Origin: a bacterium
Lineage (GTDB): Bacteria; Armatimonadota; Fimbriimonadia; Fimbriimonadales; Fimbriimonadaceae
Direction of reading: 5' to 3'
DNA: 64,000 nucleotides
Assembly: GCA_027485645.1 (NCBI GenBank)
Contig: JAIXQR010000003.1
Span: forward strand, 372,001-436,000
Numbering within the stretch: position 1 is the first letter of the stretch; every line of letters starts with the position of its first letter. Made by a program: the position numbers and the translations under genes. The notes under the pieces are model-generated. The model did no database searches. It saw only the letters and a list, made by a program, of their open reading frames with translations, and was not told where the DNA came from. Below, one piece after another: positions 31,505 to 47,370 of this stretch.

Positions 31505-31921
31505 AATGGCCTGCTTCATCTTTGGACCGATCCCCGGCAGGTCTTGCTCCTGAACCGTTTTCTGAAGCTGTGCAAGAGTAGAGATCTGGTGTTCTTGCCA
31601 AAGCCGGCGGGCGGTCTTCGCGCCGAGGCCGGGAACGCGAACGAGTTCTAGCACCGAGATTGGGGCTTCCCTTTCCCACTCAAGTTGCTTGCTGCTGACC
31701 CCGTCGCGGATGATCTCTTTCATGTATTGGGCGATCAACTTTCCGACCTGGGGAATCTCGGTGAGGCGATGCTCAACATGGAGCTCCATGATGGGCTCCG
31801 GCATTTTTTCGATGGTCCGCGCGATTTGGGTGTAGCGAGTGGCGTGGCTTTCCTCGTAGCCCGCGATGATGAGGAAATCTCGCAGGTCGCGGAGTCGGTT
31901 CGCCATTTCGAGATTGGTCAT
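31487..31921 (-). CDS. Stand-alone Pol X N-terminal / helix-hairpin-helix protein
   Basis: 144 residues matching only the 8-kDa and HhH part of family X DNA polymerases: NRLRDLRDFLIIAGYEESHATRYTQIARTIE at the N-terminus, then two helix-hairpin-helix motifs, LTEIPQVGKLIAQYM and VRVPGLGAKTARRLW, and a third LPGIGPKMKQAIL. There is no nucleotidyltransferase palm or PHP domain. It probably binds DNA ends or gaps. The start has CATATT six bases upstream. It could be a remnant of a longer polX, but the reading frame is clean and has its own promoter. Confidence 0.72.
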   Translation of the reverse strand: MTNLEMANRLRDLRDFLIIAGYEESHATRYTQIARTIEKMPEPIMELHVEHRLTEIPQVGKLIAQYMKEIIRDGVSSKQLEWEREAPISVLELVRVPGLGAKTARRLWQEHQISTLAQLQKTVQEQDLPGIGPKMKQAILETTL

Positions 31922-31933
31922 GCACCTAATATG
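31922..31933 (-). promoter_or_regulatory. Leaderless-type -10 box for the Pol X-like gene
   Basis: CATATT (31933-31928, minus strand), then AGGTGC, then ATG. This is a one-base variant of TATATT with the common N6 spacing. Confidence 0.4.
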
Positions 31934-31971
31934 CGGGAAATCGGCGGTTTTGTGCCGAAGGTCATTGGAGT

Positions 31972-32006
31972 TTGGAGGTTGTTATAACGGGTGTTATAAT
32001 CAGGGT
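31972..32006 (+). promoter_or_regulatory. Promoter and double-palindrome operator of the toxin-antitoxin operon
   Basis: TTGGAG (31972-31977), 17-base spacer, TATAAT (31995-32000), six bases, ATG 32007. Two copies of an 8-base palindrome overlap it: GTTATAAC (31981-31988, perfect) and GTTATAAT (31993-32000, one mismatch), 12 bases apart. One covers the spacer and the other the -10, as expected for an AbrB/MazE-type autoregulator. Confidence 0.65.
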
Positions 32007-32231
32007 ATGGTCAAGCTTACAGTTCGCAAAATTGGTAACTCGCTCGGCGTGATTCTGCCGCAGGAAACCCTGTTAGATTTGAACGTGAAAGAAGGAGATA
32101 CGTTGAGTGCAACCGCCACGCCTGAAGGCGTACGCTTGACTGCATTTGATCCCGAGTTCGCCGCACAACTTGAAGTAGCCAAGACTGTAATGCGAGAGAA
32201 TCGGGACGTTCTGCGCGAGCTCGCGAAATGA
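32007..32231 (+). CDS. AbrB/MazE-family antitoxin
   Basis: 74 residues. MVKLTVRKIGNSLGVILPQE is the swapped-hairpin AbrB/MazE DNA-binding domain; the C-terminal helix (EVAKTVMRENRDVLRELAK) probably wraps the toxin. It is the antitoxin and autorepressor of the following Doc toxin. The A of ATG lies six bases after a TATAAT, so the mRNA may be leaderless. A longer upstream frame exists but would cross the promoter. The stop overlaps the toxin ATG by 4 bp. Confidence 0.88.
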   Translation: MVKLTVRKIGNSLGVILPQETLLDLNVKEGDTLSATATPEGVRLTAFDPEFAAQLEVAKTVMRENRDVLRELAK

Positions 32232-32614
32232 GAGAGCCGATCTGGTTGCGCACGGATGTTGTACTTGCCTTTCACGAGGCGCAACTCAGGGAGCACGGTG
32301 GAGCGGAAGGAATACGTGATCGTGGCATGCTCGAATCAGCCTTAGACAGGCCCAAGAACAAGCATACTTACGAAGAATCGGATGTGCTCGCGTGCGCAGC
32401 GGCTTACGCTTACGGACTCGCAATGAACCACCCGTTTATTGACGGAAACAAGCGTACTGCGCTGGTCGCTTGCCTCACTTTCCTTCACCTCAATGGATTT
32501 GTGGCCACGGCAACGCAGGCCGAAACTCTTGTAGCAATGCTACAGCTTGCTTCTGGCGAGTGGGGCGAGGCGGAGTTTGAGGCGTGGTTGCGTGGTCATG
32601 TCGTCCCTCGCTGA
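32228..32614 (+). CDS. doc: Death-on-curing (Doc) family Fic toxin
   Basis: 128 residues. The Fic motif HPFIDGNKRT spans 68-77 with the catalytic His and the phosphate-binding GNKR. The N-terminus (LAFHEAQLREHGG) is Doc-like. Doc kinases phosphorylate EF-Tu and stop translation; Doc proteins lack the AMP-transferring layout of large Fic enzymes. It starts inside the antitoxin stop (ATGA), the normal coupling for a toxin-antitoxin pair. All motif residues are intact. Confidence 0.9.
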   Translation: MREPIWLRTDVVLAFHEAQLREHGGAEGIRDRGMLESALDRPKNKHTYEESDVLACAAAYAYGLAMNHPFIDGNKRTALVACLTFLHLNGFVATATQAETLVAMLQLASGEWGEAEFEAWLRGHVVPR

Positions 32615-32628: not shown

Positions 32629-33978
32629 ATGAGTTTTCCGGCAGATTTTGCTTGGGGCGTTGCGACGGCTTCTTACCAAATTGAGGGTGCGCCGTATTTG
32701 GCGGGCGGTGGGTATTCGGTTTGGGACATGTTCTGCCGACGACCGGGGAAGATCAACGACGCTTCCAATGGCGATGTCGCTTGCGACCACTTCAATCGGT
32801 TCCGCGAAGATGTTGCGATGATGGCCGAACTTGGCGTCAAGCACTATCGCCTGAGCCTTTCTTGGCCACGGATTCAGCCGGGCGGGCACGGTGCGCCGAG
32901 CGAGGCGGGGTTGGCGTTTTATGATCAGCTGATCGACGAGCTCCTGGCCAACGGCATCACGCCATGGGTGACGTTGTTCCACTGGGACGCGCCTTATGAG
33001 CTTTATCTCCAGGGCGGCTGGCTGAACCGGGACCATGCGGATTGGTTTGCGGATTACACCCAGATCGTCGTGGATCGGCTCTCGGACCGAGTTCAGAACT
33101 GGATGACCCTAAACGAGCCGCAATGCTTTATCGGGCTTGGGCTGCAGAGCGGGATTCATGCACCGGGCGACCAGCTTGGGATGGCAGAGGTTCTCCTCGC
33201 CGGGCACCATGCGCTGTTGGCGCACGGAAAGGCTTGCCAAGTCATCCGGGCGCACGCTAAGACTGCGCCGAAGATCGGCTGGGCACCGGTTGGGGCGGCG
33301 AAGATTCCGGCCTCAAACTCGCCGGAGGACATCGAAGCGGCGCGAGAATCGATGTTCGCCACCCACAAGGATTCGGTTTGGAGCAACTCCTGGTGGAACG
33401 ATCCGATCTTCTTTGGCGAGTATCCGGCCGAGGGGCTGGAAGCTTATGGCGCGCTTGCGCCGAAGGCGAAGGCGGGCGACATGGAGACGATTGCCCAGCC
33501 GATGGACTTCTTTGGTGCGAACATTTACAACGGCCAGACCATCAAGGCGACCGAGAATGGACCGGAGGAGATTCCGAATCCGCTCGGCATCGGCCGCACC
33601 ATTTACCACTGGCCGGTGACGCCGGAGTGCCTGTACTGGGGGCCGCGGTTCTTGTATGAGCGGTACAAGAAGCCGATCATCATCACCGAAAACGGGCTTG
33701 GGCTATCGGACTGGGTGGCTCTAGACGGAAAGGTTCACGATCCGCAGCGAATCGACTTCCTGCATCGCCACCTACAGGCCTTTGCTCGGGCCGGGGAAGA
33801 TGGCGTGGAGATTGCGGGGTACTTCCAGTGGTCGCTCATGGACAACTTTGAGTGGTACGAAGGGTATCGGCACCGGTTTGGGTTGGTCCACGTGGACTAC
33901 CAGACGCAGGTTCGGACGCCGAAGGACAGCGCGTATTGGTACCGCGATGTCATGGCGTCCAACGGCGCCGGTTTATAA
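32629..33978 (+). CDS. GH1 beta-glucosidase
   Basis: 449 residues, usual GH1 length. N-terminal signature FAWGVATASYQIEGA; acid/base E163 in MTLNEPQ; nucleophile E354 in ITENGLG; the aglycone/glycone region FQWSLMDNFEWYEGYRHRFG. Hydrolyses beta-1,4-linked glucosides such as cellobiose. There is no signal peptide, so it is cytoplasmic. Its last 6 bp overlap the opposite-strand cyclic-nucleotide-binding gene. It would complement the secreted GH44 enzyme in glucan use, although that gene is broken here. Confidence 0.93.
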   Translation: MSFPADFAWGVATASYQIEGAPYLAGGGYSVWDMFCRRPGKINDASNGDVACDHFNRFREDVAMMAELGVKHYRLSLSWPRIQPGGHGAPSEAGLAFYDQLIDELLANGITPWVTLFHWDAPYELYLQGGWLNRDHADWFADYTQIVVDRLSDRVQNWMTLNEPQCFIGLGLQSGIHAPGDQLGMAEVLLAGHHALLAHGKACQVIRAHAKTAPKIGWAPVGAAKIPASNSPEDIEAARESMFATHKDSVWSNSWWNDPIFFGEYPAEGLEAYGALAPKAKAGDMETIAQPMDFFGANIYNGQTIKATENGPEEIPNPLGIGRTIYHWPVTPECLYWGPRFLYERYKKPIIITENGLGLSDWVALDGKVHDPQRIDFLHRHLQAFARAGEDGVEIAGYFQWSLMDNFEWYEGYRHRFGLVHVDYQTQVRTPKDSAYWYRDVMASNGAGL

Positions 33979-34440
33979 CGCGTTATCCCAGGTATCGGTG
34001 GTTTTGTCGTAAAGCTCGTCGATCTTGTCGTTCGCCACGCGAAGGCGGCCCGCGAGGACTCGGGAGAGGTTGGCGAGGACGACAAAACCCCATTCTCGGT
34101 TGGCGTTCATTTTTGCCCGCAGTTCCTTCGCGGGGATGACGGCGGCGTCGACGAGGCCGGTGCAGACGACGTTGGCGGTTCGGGGGCGGGCGTCGATTAG
34201 GGCGATTTCGCCGAGGATGCTGCCGGGGCCGACTTCGCTGAGCTTTTGACCGTCGGAGGTGAGGACGTTGAGGCGTCCTTCTAGGATCAGATAGAGGTCG
34301 CTGCTTTGCTCACCGCTGCGGATGAGGGTTTCCTGCGGCAGGAATCGCCGCATGGTGGCGAGAGATGCGATCTCCTCAATTTGAGCGTCGCTGAGTCCAA
34401 CGACCAGATAAGTTTTTTTGAGCGCAGCGAGGTCCAACAT
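33973..34440 (-). CDS. Stand-alone cyclic-nucleotide-binding domain protein
   Basis: 155 residues. After a short helix, the cNMP-binding barrel shows LSDAQIEEIASLATMRRFLPQETLIRSGE, LYLILEGRLNVL and the phosphate-binding cassette GSILGEIALIDARPRTANV with the conserved E and R. No C-terminal HTH follows, only a short helix, so this is a sensor rather than a CRP-type regulator. A class III nucleotidyl cyclase lies about 450 bp away, diverging. The ligand could be cAMP, cGMP or a pyrimidine cNMP. Confidence 0.82.
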   Translation of the reverse strand: MLDLAALKKTYLVVGLSDAQIEEIASLATMRRFLPQETLIRSGEQSSDLYLILEGRLNVLTSDGQKLSEVGPGSILGEIALIDARPRTANVVCTGLVDAAVIPAKELRAKMNANREWGFVVLANLSRVLAGRLRVANDKIDELYDKTTDTWDNAL

Positions 34441-34884: not shown

Positions 34885-35937
34885 GTGAATCACGGGAGCC
34901 AGCGGGGGGCGAAGGATTTGGTCCGGGTCTTTGCGCTGTCCTATGGACTGTCGCTTATCACTTCCCTATTCCTGCGCAATGTGATTGGGGCGCCGATTTG
35001 GTTGGCGGTGATCATGTACGGAACGCCGTTTGGCATCTGTTTTGGAACCGTTTCGATGCTGCGGCTCGATGAGCTGCGGCTGAAGAGTTATCTCGCGACG
35101 GTTCTCGTGCGGGTTTTCACCTACATGGCGGCGGTTTTCGTCGCGTTCTTCATTGCGCTGCTTTGCAACATCTCGTTGCGAACCCAGAAGATGCCTTGGG
35201 AGGCGGACGTGATGTCGATCATCCAGAGCATCGTCACGCAGTCTTACTTCCAAGTCTCGGGTGCGGCGGCGATTGCTATTGCCTTTCTGACCTCCAGCAT
35301 TCAGGCGATCTCTCGGAAGCTCGGGCCGGGGGTTTTGACCAACTGGCTACGCGGCTACTATCACGAGCCGCGGGAGGAGACTCGAATTTTCATGTTTCTG
35401 GACATGAAGGACTCGACGACATTGGCAGAGGCGCTGGGGCACATGAAGTTCAGCGCGCTGGTGCGAGACTTTATGGCCGACCTGACGGGGCCGGTGCTGG
35501 CGACGAAGGCGGAAGTGAGCCACTACATCGGCGACGAAGCGGTGATCACCTGGCAAATGGAGCGTGGGCTTGCGAATGCGAATTGCCTTCGGCTGTTCTT
35601 CTTGTTCCAATCCCGGCTGGAATCGCGAAGGGCGTATTACGAACGGAACTACGGCCTCCTACCCGGCTTCAAAGCGGGTGCCCACTACGGACAAGTGGTG
35701 ACCACGGAGGTCGGGGAGATCAAGAGTGAGATCGTTTACCACGGCGACGTGCTCAACACCGCCGCCCGAATCCAAGGCATGTGCGCCGGGCTGGGCGAGG
35801 AGTTCCTGATTTCTGGAGAGCTGGCGGCGAAGCTGGGGTCGCGGGAGGGGTTGCGGTCGCTCGGGAGCTTTGGGTTGAAGGGTCGGGAGAAGGAGGTGGA
35901 GTTGGTGGCGGTGGATCGCGAAGGCTCGGTGCCTTAA
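34885..35937 (+). CDS. Membrane class III nucleotidyl cyclase
   Basis: 350 residues. About four membrane helices (15-140), then the cyclase domain from TRIFMFLDMKDST. Metal-binding D173 (FLDMKD) and D217 (YIGDEA), and D288, N291 and R295 in YHGDVLNTAARI are present. The base-selecting Lys three residues before the second GD is replaced by His213 (SHYIGDE), so the substrate may not be ATP. It makes a cyclic nucleotide at the inner membrane face. Diverges from a cNMP-binding protein gene; its last 4 bp overlap the 3' end of the TIR-WD40 gene. The GTG start is supported by TAAAGT at N6. Confidence 0.8.
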   Translation: MNHGSQRGAKDLVRVFALSYGLSLITSLFLRNVIGAPIWLAVIMYGTPFGICFGTVSMLRLDELRLKSYLATVLVRVFTYMAAVFVAFFIALLCNISLRTQKMPWEADVMSIIQSIVTQSYFQVSGAAAIAIAFLTSSIQAISRKLGPGVLTNWLRGYYHEPREETRIFMFLDMKDSTTLAEALGHMKFSALVRDFMADLTGPVLATKAEVSHYIGDEAVITWQMERGLANANCLRLFFLFQSRLESRRAYYERNYGLLPGFKAGAHYGQVVTTEVGEIKSEIVYHGDVLNTAARIQGMCAGLGEEFLISGELAAKLGSREGLRSLGSFGLKGREKEVELVAVDREGSVP

Positions 35938-38900
35938 CCGGGCAAGCGGAGATACTTAGCCCTCAACTTCAAAATGCTGAGCTCGGTGAAGGGCTCGCCT
36001 CGGAATTCGATTTGGGTTGGGGAGTCGTTGCCGCGAGCGGCTTCGTGCCGCAGGTATTCCGAGACGTCCATCCATCGCATCTCTTTGTCCGACGTTCGAA
36101 TCACGAGCAGCACGGGGTACGCCTGCTCCTGCCAATATGACACCCAGTTTGGATTTGTGATTTGGAAGACTTCGGTGTTGTCGTGTTTGCGCAGTCGAAG
36201 GTAAGAATCGCCTGACTTAAGCTGCAAGTAGAGCTTTTTGCCGCTGGCTCTGCCATTGACCTTCTTGAATTCGATCTCAGCGTCGATACCGTGATCACTA
36301 TTGGCATAGAGGCGCATGATTTGTCCGGCGTTGCTAATAACGAGGCCAGCGTGGTGGACGGCCTGCAATTCGCGGCTTTCGTTGTCGATGGAAAGTTTGG
36401 CAAGCTCTTGTTCGTCGACGGCTTTCTTGTTTATATCCTCGGACTGTAATTTCTGTTCAATGATGTCATTGAGAAGTATCCGCGAGCGGCAGTTCCAGCA
36501 ACTGACCGTCTTTGCATTTCGTTTATGGGCTTCATCGATGATCTCCAGGTGGATTCTCCGGCCATATTGGTGGCACTTAGCGTTTCTACAAGCGTAGTGC
36601 CGGATTCGGACGACATTACTTGCGTTCGCTTTGAGATGGTTTTCCACGTACCTGAGGAAAAGTGCACGGGTTTCATCCGCGATTTCTGGATCAAAGTGAA
36701 CCTCGATGCGCGCTCTTCCGTTGAGTTCGCGAGTAACGCAAATGCCGAGCTTTTGGTTAACAAGGGTTCTGAAGTCAGCGGCATTTTTCCAGAGGCTTTC
36801 TGTCTCAAATGCCGTGGTGTGGTGCAGGAGCACGACTAGAGTCGCATAGACCTCATCGACGTGTCCGTCAAACTCGAAAGTGACAAACATCGAAGGGTGG
36901 CTGGGGTTGTCCTCTCGCTCACGTTTGAAGTAGCTGGGGAAGGACAGGATGACATCGCCTTCGATCGGTTGGCGTAGGCACCACGCCTTTTCGACAAAGA
37001 GCTCGTTTAGGGCTAGAAGGAGGACTTTTTCGTCCGTGCGATTCACGCGGACAAAGTCCTGATAGTCGAGTTCACCGCTCAACAACTTGCTCTCTGAAAT
37101 ACAACCTAGCTCCTGAGGGTGAGAGCGGACGGTTCGGACGACGGCGGCGGTATAGCGGCTGAGCACTTCGGGCTGGAGGAGAATGACGTCGCCGGACAGG
37201 CGCATGATGTGGCCGGGTCGGCAAAGGCTATCCACGACGGTGCGTAATTCGTCAGGCGTTGCGATTTCCTCGAGGTAATCCAAGTGTTGCTTCAGCGCGG
37301 CAATGGTCACAAGTAGCTTGCCTTGGTCACGGAGGTTGAGAACGTGGGATTTGAGGCGCTCGAAGATGGTGGGGGAACTGGTGGTTGGGATGGATTGCCA
37401 ATCGATTGACTTCAACAGGGCATCCTTCAGCTCGGGGATTTCCGCGCCAGTTGCCGCACTGGTTCGGTAAAGATGCTCGTTAAAGCCACGCTTTGCTATG
37501 AAATCGTCGTACTGACTCTGACTGTGAGTCAGTCCGCCACAGTCCACGCGGCCAGCGACGAGGAACTTTTTGTACCCTTGTGGCGCGGCTTTTTCTAGGT
37601 CGCGGTCCCATTGGCCAAGGCCTTCAAATGGGTTCTGATGCTGCGGATTGAAGACAAAAACCGCCGCTTGCGCATCGCGGATGAAAAGTTGATGTACCAG
37701 TCGATAGTCGATTTGGCCGGCGAAGTCCCATAGCCAAATTTCTTGTTTTGTGCCATCGATAGATTCGGCAGGCAATTCCCAATGGGTGGCCCAAACGCCG
37801 TCAGTGGATGATGTTTCTTGAAACTCGTTGAAACGGAGGCGACGCGCCAGACCGGATTTTCCAACCCCAGAATCACCCACAAATAAAACTTTTGCATTTT
37901 TATACAAATAGTGAGCAGGTTTAGGGCCAGATGAATCAGTGATGGCCCACATACGAATTACTCCTTCTCGCGAAGTAGATAGTGCGAATTGTAAGTCTTG
38001 GCTGAAAGCGACAGCCGAGATGATATCCGCTTGGCCGACTACTACCTGGAGACATTGTCCAGTTGCCATATCCCATAACCGAAACGTGTTGTCTCTCGAT
38101 CCTGACATTGCATACTTACCGTCCTGGCTCAGTGCCACGGAAAGTATGGTGTCAGTGTGTCCTTCTAAAATCTGGAGGCAACGACCTGTGTCTAAGTCCC
38201 ACTTTCGGAGAGCGTTGTCGCCCGACGCAGTCAGGTAATATGTGTCGTCTCGACTGACTAAGACGAATCTGACGGAACTGGAATGTTCGCGTCGCACTTG
38301 AAGACAGCGCCCATTTGTGAGGTCCCACTTTCGAACGGAGCGGTCGTTCGATCCCGAAAAGGCGAACTTGCCGTCATGGCTAATGGAGAGGGCCCAAACT
38401 CCACTTAGGTTTCCCTCTAGGACTTGTACACAATTTCCCGTTTTGAGATCCCATTTTCGGATGGTTTTGTCATCTGACCCGGAGAGCGCAAACTTTGCAT
38501 TTTGGCTAATTGCTATAGTTCGAACGGTCTGCTGATGTCCTTTTAGGATCATGAGACATTTACCGTTTGCTAAGTCCCAAACTCGGAGTGTGTTGTCGTC
38601 TGATCCGGAAATGGCAAGGGTGTTATCGTGACTGATTGTTATCGTGTAAACAATGCCTTGATGTCCGTCCAGCGTTTGAATACATTTTCCCGTTTCTAGG
38701 TCCCACTTTCGGATCGTTTTGTCTGATCCCGAGAGTGCGAGCCGCCCGCCGTCATAGATGGCTACTGACGACGACTCCGCCGTGTTTCTCCCAAGCACAT
38801 AGACACATTTTCTAGTAACGAGGTCCCACTTTCTAATGGTATTGTCTGCTGATCCTGAGACGACGAAATCTCCATAACTGCTGATAGCGACGGATTGAAC

Positions 38901-40124
38901 TCCCTTACTGTGCCCCTCTAGAATTTCCAAACAGCGCCCGGTTTCTAGGTCCCACTTTCGAATGGTTTTGTCGGATGATCCTGAGATTGCGAATTTCCCG
39001 TTTTGGCTGATGGCAACGGACCACACGTTTTGCGTGTGCCCCTCTAAAACGTTGATACATGTTCCGGCTTCTAGATCCCATCGTCGGATCGTATTGTCCA
39101 CTGATCCTGAGATTGCGAATTTCCCGTCTTGGCTGATGGCGACGGAATAAACAAAGTTGGTATGTCCCACTAGAACATCGAGACATCGCCCGGTTGCGAG
39201 GTCCCAGACCCTGAGAGTATTGTCGCTGGATCCCGAAACTGCAAACATACCGTTCGGACTGATTGCTACGGTGTGAACGACGTTCAAATGTCCAGTTAAC
39301 ACATGTGAACATTCTCCGGTAGCAAGGTCCCATTTTCGGAGCGTGTTGTCGACCGATCCCGACACAGCAAACTTTCCATCATGGCTAATTGCTACAGTTC
39401 GGACTGCGCTTGCGTGTCCGTCGAGTATTTGGACACTTTCGCCAGTTGCTAAGTCCCACTTGCGGATATGAGCTGTTGATCCTGAAAGGGCAAACTTTTC
39501 GTCTGGGCTGATGGCAATGCACCAAACGCTTTGAGCGTGAGCTTCCATTGTTTTAAGGCACTGTCCGGATTCAACGTCCCACATTCGGAGGCTGTGGTCA
39601 ATCGAACCGGAAATCAAAAACGTGTTTGAGCGACTAATGGCGACTGCCCGGACAATGTTCTCATGACCGGTAGCGATGAGTTCTTGAAGAATGACCGATC
39701 CAGACGGGGGGAGACCAGGTTCAGCTATACAAGTTTTGAGAAGCCATCCATACGCCGAATCGGCAGGATCCTGCCAATCGACGCACAAATACTGAGTCAT
39801 GGATGCCGGTGTTTCAGTGTGGTCTAAGCGAATCGGGAAAAATCGGCGCTCCCTGTTCAACGGATCTCGAAAGAGGAAGCTACCGTGCTCCATTTGCACC
39901 CAGTCCGAACCAGTGGCGTTCCGGGATAGGAATAAGAATAGAACCCTCGATTGGGTGAGACCCTCGTTCATCTTGGCCGGGATGCTGTCGCCCGGCTGGA
40001 TCTCCCACTCATCGAACCAGACCTTTACCCCGTCTGCTCGGAGCCGCTCGGCCAAGTCGCGCACCACGTCTTTGTCCTTTGAGCTATGGCTCAGGAAGAC
40101 ATCGAAGGCAAAGGTTTCGGCCAT
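35934..40124 (-). CDS. TIR-WD40(x14)-GTPase-zinc ribbon-DUF4365 protein, putative NLR-like immune sensor
   Basis: 1396 residues. TIR domain (about 5-145) with DVFLSHSSKDKD and VWFDEWEIQPGDS; E41 is the likely NADase glutamate. Fourteen WD40 repeats (about 153-731) end in RKWDL or RVWDL. A Ras/Roc-like GTPase follows: P-loop GDSGVGKS (about 749-756), switch II DFAGQ (about 799), NKxD degenerate as GRVD. Then a COR-like or helical region, a zinc ribbon (C1179, C1184, C1209, C1212), and a DUF4365 nuclease-like end with D1281 in HGIDAEIEF and Q1301-L-K1303. The layout suggests a sensor, a switch and one or two effectors in one chain. The leader is longer than usual (TAGAAT 12 bases before ATG). 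Base composition is lower: 29 of 60 G+C at 38581-38640 versus 33 of 60 at 33841-33900. Convergent with the cyclase. Confidence 0.85.
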   Translation of the reverse strand: MAETFAFDVFLSHSSKDKDVVRDLAERLRADGVKVWFDEWEIQPGDSIPAKMNEGLTQSRVLFLFLSRNATGSDWVQMEHGSFLFRDPLNRERRFFPIRLDHTETPASMTQYLCVDWQDPADSAYGWLLKTCIAEPGLPPSGSVILQELIATGHENIVRAVAISRSNTFLISGSIDHSLRMWDVESGQCLKTMEAHAQSVWCIAISPDEKFALSGSTAHIRKWDLATGESVQILDGHASAVRTVAISHDGKFAVSGSVDNTLRKWDLATGECSHVLTGHLNVVHTVAISPNGMFAVSGSSDNTLRVWDLATGRCLDVLVGHTNFVYSVAISQDGKFAISGSVDNTIRRWDLEAGTCINVLEGHTQNVWSVAISQNGKFAISGSSDKTIRKWDLETGRCLEILEGHSKGVQSVAISSYGDFVVSGSADNTIRKWDLVTRKCVYVLGRNTAESSSVAIYDGGRLALSGSDKTIRKWDLETGKCIQTLDGHQGIVYTITISHDNTLAISGSDDNTLRVWDLANGKCLMILKGHQQTVRTIAISQNAKFALSGSDDKTIRKWDLKTGNCVQVLEGNLSGVWALSISHDGKFAFSGSNDRSVRKWDLTNGRCLQVRREHSSSVRFVLVSRDDTYYLTASGDNALRKWDLDTGRCLQILEGHTDTILSVALSQDGKYAMSGSRDNTFRLWDMATGQCLQVVVGQADIISAVAFSQDLQFALSTSREGVIRMWAITDSSGPKPAHYLYKNAKVLFVGDSGVGKSGLARRLRFNEFQETSSTDGVWATHWELPAESIDGTKQEIWLWDFAGQIDYRLVHQLFIRDAQAAVFVFNPQHQNPFEGLGQWDRDLEKAAPQGYKKFLVAGRVDCGGLTHSQSQYDDFIAKRGFNEHLYRTSAATGAEIPELKDALLKSIDWQSIPTTSSPTIFERLKSHVLNLRDQGKLLVTIAALKQHLDYLEEIATPDELRTVVDSLCRPGHIMRLSGDVILLQPEVLSRYTAAVVRTVRSHPQELGCISESKLLSGELDYQDFVRVNRTDEKVLLLALNELFVEKAWCLRQPIEGDVILSFPSYFKREREDNPSHPSMFVTFEFDGHVDEVYATLVVLLHHTTAFETESLWKNAADFRTLVNQKLGICVTRELNGRARIEVHFDPEIADETRALFLRYVENHLKANASNVVRIRHYACRNAKCHQYGRRIHLEIIDEAHKRNAKTVSCWNCRSRILLNDIIEQKLQSEDINKKAVDEQELAKLSIDNESRELQAVHHAGLVISNAGQIMRLYANSDHGIDAEIEFKKVNGRASGKKLYLQLKSGDSYLRLRKHDNTEVFQITNPNWVSYWQEQAYPVLLVIRTSDKEMRWMDVSEYLRHEAARGNDSPTQIEFRGEPFTELSILKLRAKYLRLPG
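37932..39668 (-). repeat. Tandem array of 14 WD40-coding units (~126 bp each)
   Basis: Units of 41-43 codons repeat with strong conservation of H..xV..VAIS..GKFA.SGS.DNT.RKWDL.TG.C..VL.G. Adjacent units such as 5 and 6 or 9 and 10 share long stretches, and the DNA keeps GTCCCACTTTCG-type blocks. Fourteen units fit two seven-bladed propellers. Units 2 and 8 are one residue shorter; unit 8 has lost the usual first strand. Confidence 0.85.
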
Positions 40125-40147: not shown

Positions 40148-41278
40148 TTAGCCGTTATAGATCACTCTCTTTACCAAGTTGATGGTCCGCGCGGCGTTGC
40201 CCGTTGCCTGCGCAGCCTGAAGCTCCGGCTTTTGAGCATAAATCATCAGCGCCTTCTTCATGCAGTTGGCAAAGAATTCGCGGGAAAGGGCCATGGATTC
40301 GACTTGTTCGGTGCGGTAGGTGAACTGGTCTTCGCCGTACCAGCCGGAGTAGCCGGTGTCGATGGCGGCGTAGCAGAACTCGACGAGGCGCCAGATGTCG
40401 TCGGTGCCGGCGATACGGTCTTCGTCGTTCGAGTTGTACTTCGCGCCGTTGATGTGGAAGTTGGCGATGGGCAGGCCGAAGGTTTTTAGGGTGTAGAGCG
40501 AATCGGCGGGGGTGTTGCCGACCATTTGCTCGTGGCCGTAGTCGATGGCGACGCCCATGACGGTTTTGCCGAGGGTTCGGTTGACCTCTAGGCACACGAG
40601 GGCAGCTTTGGCCACGGTGTTGGTGATCATGTTCATCTCCCGTGGTTCTTTCTGCTTGGGCTCGGTGCCGAACTGGAGGCCAAGGCTATCGCACTTCGCG
40701 GCGATTTCGGTGCAGGCATCGATGAACCAGCGCAGCCGCTGGCCGTAATCGACTTCGAAATGGTAGTCCCAGCCATCGGAGCCAGGCCAGTAGCCGCAGC
40801 TCACGCAGCCGATTTCTTTCGCGATTTCGACGCCGAGGAGGATCTGTTCGAGGGCGACTTTTCGAATGGCAGGGTCGGGGTGGGTGACGGCGCCGAACTT
40901 GAACTTGGGATGGGTCCAAGTGTTGAAGTTCATGTTGGTCGGGGCGACCTTGTGCTCGGCGAGGGCAGCGGTGATGGCAGCAATTTTGGCGGAATCCCGC
41001 GCTCCGTGGTCATCGAGGAAAACGACTTCGTGGAATTCGACGCCGTCGATTCCAGCCTGGCGGACACGGGCGATTTGGGCGACTACGGAGTCATCGAAGG
41101 TCGGATCGTCGGCGTTGTATCCGGCCGGGGCGAAGCGGTCGGCGAACATTCCGGCGCACCAGTGCCCGGCGGCAAAGCGGATGCCGTAGGTGTTCAGGAA
41201 GTCCGACACGCGGTCTCCTTCGAGGTAGCCCGAAAAATCTGATTCCAGTTTGTTGAGGAGTTCTGGCGTGTATTCCAT
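40148..41278 (-). CDS. Xylose isomerase-like TIM-barrel sugar isomerase
   Basis: 376 residues. Metal-site carboxylates and histidines fit the xylose/rhamnose isomerase fold: GVEFHEVVFLDDHG, LGLQFGTEPKQKEPREM, VMGVAIDYGHEQM, IANFHINGAKYNSNDEDR. It interconverts aldoses and ketoses in the cytoplasm; xylose or L-rhamnose are the nearest family substrates, and the exact sugar cannot be assigned. It lies 23 bp upstream of the TIR gene on the same strand, possibly by chance. The longer downstream neighbour has its own promoter-like box. Confidence 0.75.
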   Translation of the reverse strand: MEYTPELLNKLESDFSGYLEGDRVSDFLNTYGIRFAAGHWCAGMFADRFAPAGYNADDPTFDDSVVAQIARVRQAGIDGVEFHEVVFLDDHGARDSAKIAAITAALAEHKVAPTNMNFNTWTHPKFKFGAVTHPDPAIRKVALEQILLGVEIAKEIGCVSCGYWPGSDGWDYHFEVDYGQRLRWFIDACTEIAAKCDSLGLQFGTEPKQKEPREMNMITNTVAKAALVCLEVNRTLGKTVMGVAIDYGHEQMVGNTPADSLYTLKTFGLPIANFHINGAKYNSNDEDRIAGTDDIWRLVEFCYAAIDTGYSGWYGEDQFTYRTEQVESMALSREFFANCMKKALMIYAQKPELQAAQATGNAARTINLVKRVIYNG

Positions 41279-46298: not shown

Positions 46299-46529
46299 AT
46301 GGTTACGGTCGAGCAGGTGAAGGAACGAATTGCGAGCGTCTATCCGGGCGTCGTCATTGATATTTCGGATAAGGGCGATCGAATTGGCGGGGTGATCCGT
46401 TGGAGCGGATTTGCGAACATGCCAGTTTCAGATCGGCAACGAGACTTCCGGGACAAGGTCAGAAACGCAATGGGCTACGAAGCGAACAACGTCGGCATTA
46501 TTATTGCGCTGGCTCCAAATGAAAAGTGA
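46299..46529 (+). CDS. Small protein preceding the DUF2971 gene
   Basis: 76 residues: MVTVEQVKERIASVYPGVVI, then SGFANMPVSDRQRDFRDKVRNAMG. Mixed alpha/beta with no signal or membrane segment. Its last 11 bp overlap the DUF2971 start, so the two are translated together. AATACT 12 bases upstream of ATG is a possible -10. I do not recognise the family; it could be a small regulator or partner of the DUF2971 protein. Confidence 0.6.
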   Translation: MVTVEQVKERIASVYPGVVIDISDKGDRIGGVIRWSGFANMPVSDRQRDFRDKVRNAMGYEANNVGIIIALAPNEK

Positions 46530-47370
46530 TTCGTTTGATCGGAGTCTAATTGAGAACAATCTCGCTTCTCGACCGCCCTCTCTGGTCGCGCATTACACCA
46601 GCATCAACACGCTCATACACTTTCTAAAGCCGGTGCACTCAGGAGTTGATGGCCGCGGTGGATGGACATCGGCCTTTGCTTCACCCATTCAGTTCTTGAA
46701 CGACCGGCAGGAATTGCGTTTGGGCTTATCGACACTCTCGAGGTCCACAAGTGCGGTAAAGGTGTCGTCCGCGGTCGCAGGAATCTTGCAAGAATTGATT
46801 CTGTCTAACGGAGATCTACGATCAGACCCGTTTCAGATGAGCTTCAGTGGAAGCCCTGACGAACTTGGCCAGTGGCGAGGGTACGGCAAGAACGGCTATG
46901 GATGCTCGATTCAAACCGATATTGCCAGTCTCAATAGACTCAGCGCGGTTTCTGGATGGGTGATTTACGATCCGAATGCACAGGAAAACTTTGCTCGGAC
47001 AATTCTTGAGAGCATCGCAGATTTAGAGGATCCATTGCTCATTCAGCAGTACCTTTCCGCTGCCGCAAGTTTCATCAAGCATCCGGGTTTCGCACAGGAA
47101 AACGAGTACCGAGTCATCGTGTTTCCTGACCCTGAACAGGTGAAGTACCGACCGATCGGCGACCGAATATCTCAGTACGTCGACCTGCTAGAGAACACTT
47201 CTCTGTCGGTAAATCAAATTCTGATTGGGCCAGCTTGGCAGCTATCTGGGCTTACGGCGACCGAGTTTGAGAATCATCATGTGGTTCAGCCGATTCGAAG
47301 GCTGCTTAACGCAGCAAAACAGGAGTCGGCATTACTGATGCCTAGTTCAATTCCTTACGATCCAGAATAA
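46519..47370 (+). CDS. DUF2971 domain protein
   Basis: About 283 residues. The family marks are clear: LVAHYTSINTLIHFLKP at the N-terminus, PIQFLNDRQELRLGL, MSFSGSPDELGQWRGYGKNGYGCSI, and near the C-terminus FAQENEYRVIVF. DUF2971 proteins have no known biochemistry; they are common in accessory regions and near defence genes, and the HYT...FxxD...R pattern hints at an ADP-ribosyltransferase-like fold (inference). A strong hairpin follows the stop. The base composition looks lower than that of neighbouring core genes. Confidence 0.75.
   Translation: MKSDSFDRSLIENNLASRPPSLVAHYTSINTLIHFLKPVHSGVDGRGGWTSAFASPIQFLNDRQELRLGLSTLSRSTSAVKVSSAVAGILQELILSNGDLRSDPFQMSFSGSPDELGQWRGYGKNGYGCSIQTDIASLNRLSAVSGWVIYDPNAQENFARTILESIADLEDPLLIQQYLSAAASFIKHPGFAQENEYRVIVFPDPEQVKYRPIGDRISQYVDLLENTSLSVNQILIGPAWQLSGLTATEFENHHVVQPIRRLLNAAKQESALLMPSSIPYDPE

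Follow-up and report, generated by a model that had tools for sequence, protein, structure and literature searches.

On the minus strand of an Armatimonadota chromosome, positions 35934-40124 of the stretch analyzed here (GenBank assembly GCA_027485645.1, contig JAIXQR010000003.1, positions 372,001 to 436,000; this whole stretch of 64,000 nucleotides is called the window) were found to hold a single intact, ATG-started open reading frame (ORF) for a protein of 1396 amino acids. The protein is probably a single-protein abortive-infection receptor in which a Roco switch would govern two effectors, with a presumed anti-phage role. The same plan was found in many bacteria and some archaea, and the gene product therefore looks like a suicide alarm, contained in one protein, that responds to invaders. 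The chances seem about even that it represents an undescribed class of prokaryotic immune receptor, in which a double WD40 propeller, itself changing fast, drives an LRRK2-like Roc-COR module that fires a TIR hydrolase of nicotinamide adenine dinucleotide (NADase) and a DREN-type collateral nuclease. Gene transfer would have carried such a class across many phyla of bacteria and also to Methanothrix and Methanoperedens; its clades would swap the effector, with the TIR N-terminal or C-terminal, and it would be the Roco counterpart of the NOD-like receptors (NLRs). The gene and its parts, with the basis of each assignment in parentheses, are as follows.

35934..40124, minus strand: the whole gene, encoding TIR, 14 WD40 repeats, Roc, COR, zinc ribbon, and DUF4365 in that order (ORF calling, Pfam, and a WD hidden Markov model, HMM).
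39765..40100, minus strand: TIR domain, residues 9-120, with the invariant Glu E79 (Pfam TIR_2, 4.2e-28; PDB sequence matches; conservation).
39888..39890, minus strand: codon of E79, the proposed catalytic Glu (conservation and alignment with AbTIR; the equivalent Glu is the catalytic one in TIR NADases).
37947..39671, minus strand: 14 WD40 repeats, residues 152-726, read as two seven-bladed propellers (WD HMM and structure model).
37407..37892, minus strand: Roc (Ras-like) GTPase, residues 745-906, with the P-loop GDSGVGKS, DFAGQ, and a G4-like GRVD (Pfam Roc, 2e-19, and Ras, 5.2e-18; conservation).
36609..37382, minus strand: COR domain, residues ca. 915-1172 (structure model; Roc-COR fold compared with 3dpu_A and 8fo9_A).
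36489..36590, minus strand: putative four-Cys zinc ribbon, C1179, C1184, C1209, and C1212 (Cys conservation).
36003..36347, minus strand: predicted DUF4365/DREN-type nuclease domain, residues 1260-1374, with D1281, Q1301, and K1303 (Pfam, 6.2e-18; PADLOC Aga_REase, 6e-10; PDB matches).

The plus strand, read in frame across the same positions, had many stops. Pfam matched WD40 at 1.8e-129 (whole protein) and TIR_2, Roc, Ras, and DUF4365 on separate stretches, all above the curated cut-offs. These results uphold most of an initial annotation made from the nucleotide sequence, which had described one 1396-residue frame with a TIR domain, WD40 repeats, a P-loop GTPase, and a DUF4365-like domain, arranged as sensor, switch, and effector. 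The frame, the domains, and the positions of the motifs (GDSGVGKS at 750, DFAGQ at 800, LQLKSG at 1300, and the Cys pairs at 1179/1184 and 1209/1212) were all recovered, and the predicted layout holds at the domain level; the inventory was correct for the domains it named and incomplete in that COR (ca. 915-1172) had been overlooked. The host genome (3.19 Mb in 7 contigs) contained one full-length copy of the gene and two partial matches to its WD40 part; elsewhere in it, one more TIR_2 place and one Roc-like place below the cut-off were detected.

The top PDB sequence matches of the TIR domain were 7uxr and AbTIR (7uwg and 8g83, titled “NAD(+) hydrolase AbTIR”). E79, located within S-D-W-V-Q-M-E, was aligned to the Glu of the W-x3-E motif in 7uxr and AbTIR, and was present in 21 of 21 N-terminal TIRs (those of the window protein, of 19 DUF4365 loci, and of locus L090); its position was kept in 25 of the 27 C-terminal TIRs of relatives, or 26 of 28 rows when that of the window protein is counted. 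We take the equivalent Glu to be catalytic in SARM1, plant TIRs, and AbTIR. The likely catalytic residue of the predicted NADase is therefore E79, not E41, which had been annotated as such; E41, just ahead of the GD loop, is Glu in only 7 of the 21 N-terminal TIRs and was rejected. The N-terminal and C-terminal TIRs of the family differ in sequence, which suggests separate gains of the TIR.

In 42 aligned rows of the DUF4365 domain, D1281 was conserved in 42, E1283, E1285, and K1303 in 41 each, and Q1301 in 35. A 14-member DUF4365 profile matched DUF4365 domain-containing chains in the PDB (6.1e-13 for 9qbq; 3.5e-8) as well as the DREN-APAZ chain 9jsb (0.0016). The catalytic residues of NbaSPARDA are D41, Q60, and K62, with Mg2+ bound on D41 and Q60 (PMC12205087). 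In the inactive form of TmuRE, Q62 and K64 were mutated, and the TmuRE-Ago complex, one component of which is a DUF4365-APAZ protein, shows non-specific DNA degradation when activated (PMC10810196). The residue spacing in the window protein (D-19-Q and Q-1-K) is close to that in DREN (18 and 1). By alignment, D1281/Q1301/K1303 corresponds to the D/Q/K triad of DREN, matching D41/Q60/K62 of NbaSPARDA, and the nuclease fold of this domain is a prediction that rests on sequence. What had been annotated as a PD-(D/E)XK-like D1281 and Q1301-L-K1303 thus stands as the triad reported for DUF4365/DREN nucleases (PMC12205087, PMC10810196).

The switch region was strongly conserved among relatives. The P-loop Lys, K756, was found in 78 of 78 aligned relatives (3 of the 81 rows being gapped), and D800, G803, and Q804 in 81 of 81 rows; the G4 position reads RxD (R in 78 and D in 80 of 81), not N/TKxD. 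With the Pfam Roc match (2e-19), this conservation bears out the annotated Ras/Roc-type P-loop GTPase. The stretch from the GTPase to DUF4365 had no Pfam match, with E values up to 1 allowed. Residues 735-1396 were modeled with 37 family sequences (mean predicted local distance difference test score, pLDDT, 86.4; predicted template-modeling score, pTM, 0.85), and from this structure prediction, a step that the initial annotation had proposed, a Roc-COR fold emerged. LRRK2, LRRK1, and the C. tepidum Roco protein came first in Foldseek. In VIA-align, the model was superposed on LRRK2 (8fo9_A) with Z = 23.0 and a root-mean-square deviation (rmsd) of 5.1 over 472 aligned residues, and on C. tepidum Roco (3dpu_A) with Z = 21.4 and an rmsd of 4.4 over 430 of 485; single Rab GTPases had Z scores nearly as high, but across ca. 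160-170 residues only. At least a fifth of the VIA-align rows are confined to model residues 1-498, and support for the nuclease fold of DUF4365 accordingly comes from sequence. The alignments of 3dpu, 6hlu, and several LRRK2 rows extend to model residue 491 or further, and the stretch after Roc was therefore taken to be COR. Membership of the window protein in the Roco (Roc-COR) fold family is thus supported by the model. As for the annotated zinc ribbon, C1179 and C1184 were kept in 79 of 79 aligned rows (2 gapped) and C1209 and C1212 in 72 of 72 (9 gapped); all four Cys are retained wherever aligned and probably bind zinc.

A WD HMM built from the window protein itself was used to count the repeats, and it returned the 14 that had been annotated, at residues 152-726. 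A structure model of residues 1-730 (13 sequences; m4142b7379d79) had a pLDDT of 85.1 and a pTM of 0.51, with pLDDT below 50 in parts of the TIR and in the linker behind it; given this pTM, the placement of the TIR relative to the propellers is not provided by the model. In structure comparisons, the WD40 part was aligned with 2ymu_A over 563 residues (Z = 48.6, rmsd 10.3), and single seven-bladed propellers fitted closely (7bie_A: Z = 48.6, rmsd 0.9 over 285 residues). From the model, the WD40 part is read as two seven-bladed propellers. When the blades were compared with those of the orthologue in the sister genome (G014), the mean same-position identity was 0.52 (14 values) vs. 0.51 for all pairs, and the best partner was at the same position for 1 of 14 blades; the positional orthology of the blades is lost between the two proteins. 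The more uniform framework of the blades suggests concerted evolution. Among the positions that vary most within the blades, several come after GH, or just ahead of N-T in a D-N-T stretch.

The Roc-COR-zinc ribbon alignment was searched against 84,980 species genomes, and all family counts given here refer to the best 80 of the 226 matching stretches. The C-terminal domains of these 80 loci were assigned using our own HMMs: the domain after COR was DUF4365 in 41, TIR in 27, and a class III cyclase in 7, of which one has TIR as well; it was other or cut in 6. Nine of the 41 DUF4365 loci, in which the 5' end of the ORF was cut by a contig end, were left out of the counts of N-terminal domains; among the 32 remaining, L063 and L068 start <200 bp from a contig end and are possibly cut. 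An in-frame N-terminal TIR was present in 19 of the 32. These 19 loci were spread over ten named phyla and one Aminicenantes genome, and Methanothrix and Methanoperedens were included. The search for the full architecture proposed in the initial annotation thus yielded 19 loci of the same plan, archaea among them; its statement that no named system has this exact order does not extend to uniqueness, as 19 other loci, that of the sister genome included, share TIR-WD40-Roc-COR-DUF4365. A one-off fusion or misassembly was ruled out because the order is repeated in the G014 orthologue (L057) and in 18 further loci with an in-frame N-terminal TIR and DUF4365. No TIR at both ends was found among the 80 loci. 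Some relatives, such as L064 (groundwater Verrucomicrobia) and L074 (Nostoc), have one propeller instead of two.

A quick tree of 81 rows, the root of which is arbitrary, contained a branch (Shimodaira-Hasegawa-like approximate likelihood-ratio test, 99) that set apart 41 rows with DUF4365, together with one whose C-terminus was cut off. L099 (Calothrix, DUF4365) was placed in the other part of the tree, and an effector swap is therefore indicated. Rows were grouped by effector (10 changes vs. a shuffled mean of 33.8), and several phyla were intermixed inside the DUF4365 clade. In the other clade, TIR stands alone at the effector position in 26 of the 81 rows. The domain after COR is exchanged among relatives, as in conflict proteins. 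Two of the six loci classed as other carried a metallophosphatase after COR; one of the two, L107:9977-13852, also carried CHAT (caspase-like), and beside its gene lies a small protein that is effector adaptor-like by eye and had no Pfam match. In L111:6956-12001 (Lentzea), NNH7 (3.3e-30) and a NACHT/AAA-like stretch stand ahead of WD40-Roc-COR-TIR, giving two NTPase switches in one chain. Within Armatimonadota, the query from Roc to the end had matches in 18 of 291 genomes, many across the GTPase alone; the four strongest matches of the phylum outside the genus comprised one DUF4365 protein without TIR and three with other C-termini.

The gene was carried by 2 of the 20 genomes of the genus (its own included), and the same two were the sole DUF4365 matches there. 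The orthologue in G014 has the same domain order, and most of the neighboring gene order is retained. Reciprocal-best ORFs of at least 150 amino acids with >70% coverage were paired, with regions of 320 and 360 kb surrounding the locus as the source in the two genomes. The identity of the target was 62.0%, the third lowest of the resulting 191 pairs (median 92.6%; three quarters >86%). By domain, identity was 81% in DUF4365, 75% in TIR, 74% in Roc, 69% in COR, 51% in WD40, and 47% in the zinc ribbon. The synonymous divergence (dS, NG86) was ca. 2.3 in the target vs. 0.22-0.50 in the GH1, cyclic-nucleotide-binding, and TIM-barrel genes. Divergence at fourfold-degenerate sites was 0.63 in the target, near the 0.58 of MatE and OYE in the same block. 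Replacement of the gene by recombination between close flanks was weakened as an explanation by this similarity, and the claim is therefore limited to an unusually diverged protein. An empty site was not found in G011, where only the TIM-barrel neighbor was matched (84%) and the other 25 window ORFs tested had no match in 20 kb. No flanking terminal repeats were found or were convincing.

In the mechanism that we propose, the 14-blade WD40 part would bind a ligand, probably a phage protein, and binding would free the Roc-COR switch for nucleotide exchange and a change of oligomeric state. This cycle is modeled on the homologous C. tepidum Roco, in which nucleotide exchange is accompanied by a change of oligomeric state (PMC11052575). 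The rearrangement would cluster the TIR at one end of the protein and DUF4365 at the other. The TIR, with E79 as its catalytic residue, would degrade NAD+, and DUF4365, using D1281/Q1301/K1303 and Mg2+, may cleave nucleic acids non-specifically in the manner of SPARDA DREN; growth arrest or death would follow upon sensing of an invader. An immune function is supported indirectly by the divergence of the protein, its patchy distribution, and the operon of one relative, L077. This relative (1517 amino acids) has WD40-Roc-COR-DUF4365 after ca. 590 residues that resemble vWA by eye, with no Pfam match. Upstream of it, an AAA gene matches AAA_5 at 21.1 bits, just short of the cut-off of 22, and another gene has a secure VMAP-C match (2.6e-29) and an Mrr_cat_2 match below the cut-off. 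The locus fits the MoxR-vWA ternary system predicted by Kaur 2020 (PMC7159879).

Several results weigh against this receptor model. Pfam does not securely identify the vWA and MoxR parts at L077. No match to the Roc-to-end part was found in 50,697 phage records, and 5 of 72,556 plasmid records matched it, one over >80%. The co-occurrence with defense genes envisaged in the initial annotation was examined beside DUF4365-clade relatives by comparing near with far genes in PADLOC, and no enrichment was found. The near set (<3.5 kb) gave 17 PADLOC models, each in 1-2 of 134 neighbors, and the far set (>5.5 kb) gave 27, of which the 25 listed were each in 1 of 69 genes. These tallies are per model, not per neighbor protein, and the scans left out 19 of 153 near and 5 of 74 far ORFs (L057, L073, and L074 in both sets; L070 in the near set), owing to a limit on size and to near-duplication. 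Thirteen of the 32 uncut DUF4365 loci lack an in-frame N-terminal TIR, and the pairing of TIR with DUF4365 is therefore common, not obligatory. In two of the 13 (L059:9367-11983 and L073:6231-9416), a TIR ORF lies just upstream, the TIR and WD40-Roc parts being in separate adjacent or overlapping ORFs; these are disrupted copies, assembly errors, or split genes. Last, the variable blade positions do not set the protein apart from an ordinary WD40 protein, as detailed below.

The TIR-less loci bear on how the two ends divide the work. Because of them, the nuclease may act without the TIR, and the TIR could be a signal maker or an assembly platform, with its clustering or cyclic ADP-ribose driving oligomerization and DUF4365 as the sole killer. 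This division would suit a nuclease such as SPARDA DREN, the collateral activity of which requires tetramerization (PMC12205087). Still, E79 is retained in all 21 N-terminal TIRs, as is expected of an active enzyme, and the other clade places TIR alone at the effector position in those 26 tree rows; we consider a non-killing TIR unlikely and favor two killing effectors.

The genes adjoining the target bear on a possible regulatory role. Two neighbors are listed here.

40148..41278, minus strand: xylose-isomerase-like TIM-barrel gene, 23 bp before the target start codon and possibly co-transcribed with it (Pfam AP_endonuc_2, 3.5e-21; same order in G014).
34885..35937, plus strand: class III nucleotide cyclase gene, convergent, with an N-terminus that is hydrophobic by eye (Pfam Guanylate_cyc, 1.7e-5; weak PycC, 4e-5).

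Between 34800 and 41500, no promoter-like site was detected on the minus strand, and the cyclase gene overlaps the 3' end of the target by 4 bp. Placed 23 bp behind a sugar-isomerase-like gene and overlapping a cyclase gene, and with relatives that show no enrichment of defense genes, the protein could be a signaling or developmental Roco regulator that responds to an internal cue and tunes the turnover of NAD or nucleic acids, with no part in immunity. Such a role is difficult to reconcile with the absence of the gene from 18 of the 20 genomes of the genus, with an identity of 62% where three quarters of the 191 pairs exceed 86%, with the retention of the catalytic residues of two toxic enzymes, and with the VMAP-C gene that adjoins one relative; we regard it as quite improbable, and the immune receptor remains our preferred reading.

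No link was found that would make the cyclase a partner in the system: among the 20 genomes of the genus, close copies of its gene were present in the host genome (G000) and G014 only, the G014 copy (95% over most of its length) is split over two frames, and the PycC match is weak. Other genes of the window were noted in passing. A small cyclic-nucleotide-binding protein (33973-34440, minus strand; 4.9e-18) is encoded ca. 450 bp from the cyclase gene and is 99% identical in G014. A toxin-antitoxin-like pair, comprising a MazE-type antitoxin domain (8.6e-6) and then Fic/DOC (2.8e-17), lies at 31866-32611 on the plus strand; in G014 the antitoxin is kept (45% identity), but a search across 360 kb of contig C2 gave nothing that matched Doc. 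A DUF2971 protein (46411-47370, plus strand; 4.2e-10) is 75% identical in G014 and among the more diverged genes of the block.

The WD40 blades raise the comparison with fungal self-recognition. The HNWD repeats of Podospora NLRs have seven positions with high ratios of nonsynonymous to synonymous substitution (dN/dS; PMC12222747), and the variable blade positions of the window protein are spaced like them. The Podospora pattern was slid over 42 offsets in those proteins that had 5 or more full, gap-free blades, namely 19 from the DUF4365 clade and 3 others. The same offset came first in 15 of the 19 DUF4365-clade proteins (contrast 1.2-6.1), a match that is confounded because a WDR5 control (5 roughly framed blades) put the same offset first too, at a lower contrast of 1.4; the variable positions are therefore those of WD40 faces generally. 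A protein for self-recognition or inter-bacterial conflict, with a bacterial ligand and comparable to the WD40 NLRs of fungal incompatibility, is favored by the blades of the window protein, which, like those of Podospora het-d/het-e (PMC12222747), join a more uniform framework with variable binding-face positions. Against it, neither a secretion system nor a contact system was found among the 6 flanking ORFs and 7 further proteins, and a lone intracellular receptor would suit phage sensing equally well or better. We judge this alternative very improbable and retain a phage-directed receptor.

If the receptor model is correct, two independent effectors would make phage escape harder, and the dual-effector, single-gene design would join the known abortive-infection systems. 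What is known of Roc-COR proteins comes chiefly from LRRK2 in Parkinson's disease and from a small number of bacterial structures that serve as models of it. Were a bacterial Roco protein to have an identifiable output (NAD loss, nucleic acid cleavage), the switch could be read directly in E. coli, and the prediction that Roco GTPases are immune switches in prokaryotes would be put to the test.

Among the literature matches listed, which included few subscription journals, there was no Roco protein with TIR and DUF4365 and no tested Roco anti-phage system. Like SPARDA, the window protein has a nuclease domain of the DUF4365 family with the D/Q/K triad, and its profile matched 9qbq and 9jsb (PMC12205087, PMC10810196). 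Unlike SPARDA, it has no APAZ match, no Argonaute was found by PADLOC in the 6 flanking ORFs, and its trigger would be a Roco receptor, not guided target binding. The two-effector short Argonaute systems, with REase and TIR on one APAZ protein (PMC10810196), also place a nuclease and a TIR in one protein; they have another sensor and, as described there, no GTPase switch. PADLOC matches in the window protein were confined to the TIR, WD40, and DUF4365 stretches; those to ThsB of Thoeris were at the level of the TIR only, and no ThsA was found in the 6 flanking ORFs. Cyanobacterial pairs of STAND-WD40 and TIR-STAND proteins (WRAP; PMC9218822) resemble the window protein in their repetitive WD40 propellers, TIR, and suspected immune role, but use a STAND ATPase switch and two proteins. 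In the MoxR-vWA ternary systems (PMC7159879), the place of the effector can be taken by AP-GTPase-COR and by propellers. MoxR, vWA, and VMAP were absent from the flanking genes of the window scanned with Pfam, whereas AAA and VMAP-C genes adjoin the relative L077. The features tested place the window protein outside SPARDA, Thoeris, and the ternary systems.

The Roc-COR fold predicted for the window protein is shared with C. tepidum Roco and LRRK2 (3dpu, 6hlu, and 8fo9). C. tepidum Roco is a leucine-rich repeat-Roc-COR protein with no kinase (PMC11052575) and LRRK2 has a kinase, whereas the window protein has two predicted effector enzymes. The closest likeness is to the conflict proteins of leucine-rich repeats, AP-GTPase(Roc), and COR predicted in Kaur 2021 to counter invaders, with at least 24 kinds of C-terminal effector, TIR included (PMC8195603): both have Roc and COR, an N-terminal repeat sensor, and a swappable C-terminal effector. 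The window protein differs in having WD40 instead of leucine-rich repeats, an extra N-terminal TIR, and a zinc ribbon. It also ends in DUF4365, which is not named in section 15 of that paper, the source data of which may hold this order. The best reading of the window protein is that of a Roco protein that is a variant of the AP-GTPase-COR conflict proteins predicted in Kaur 2021.

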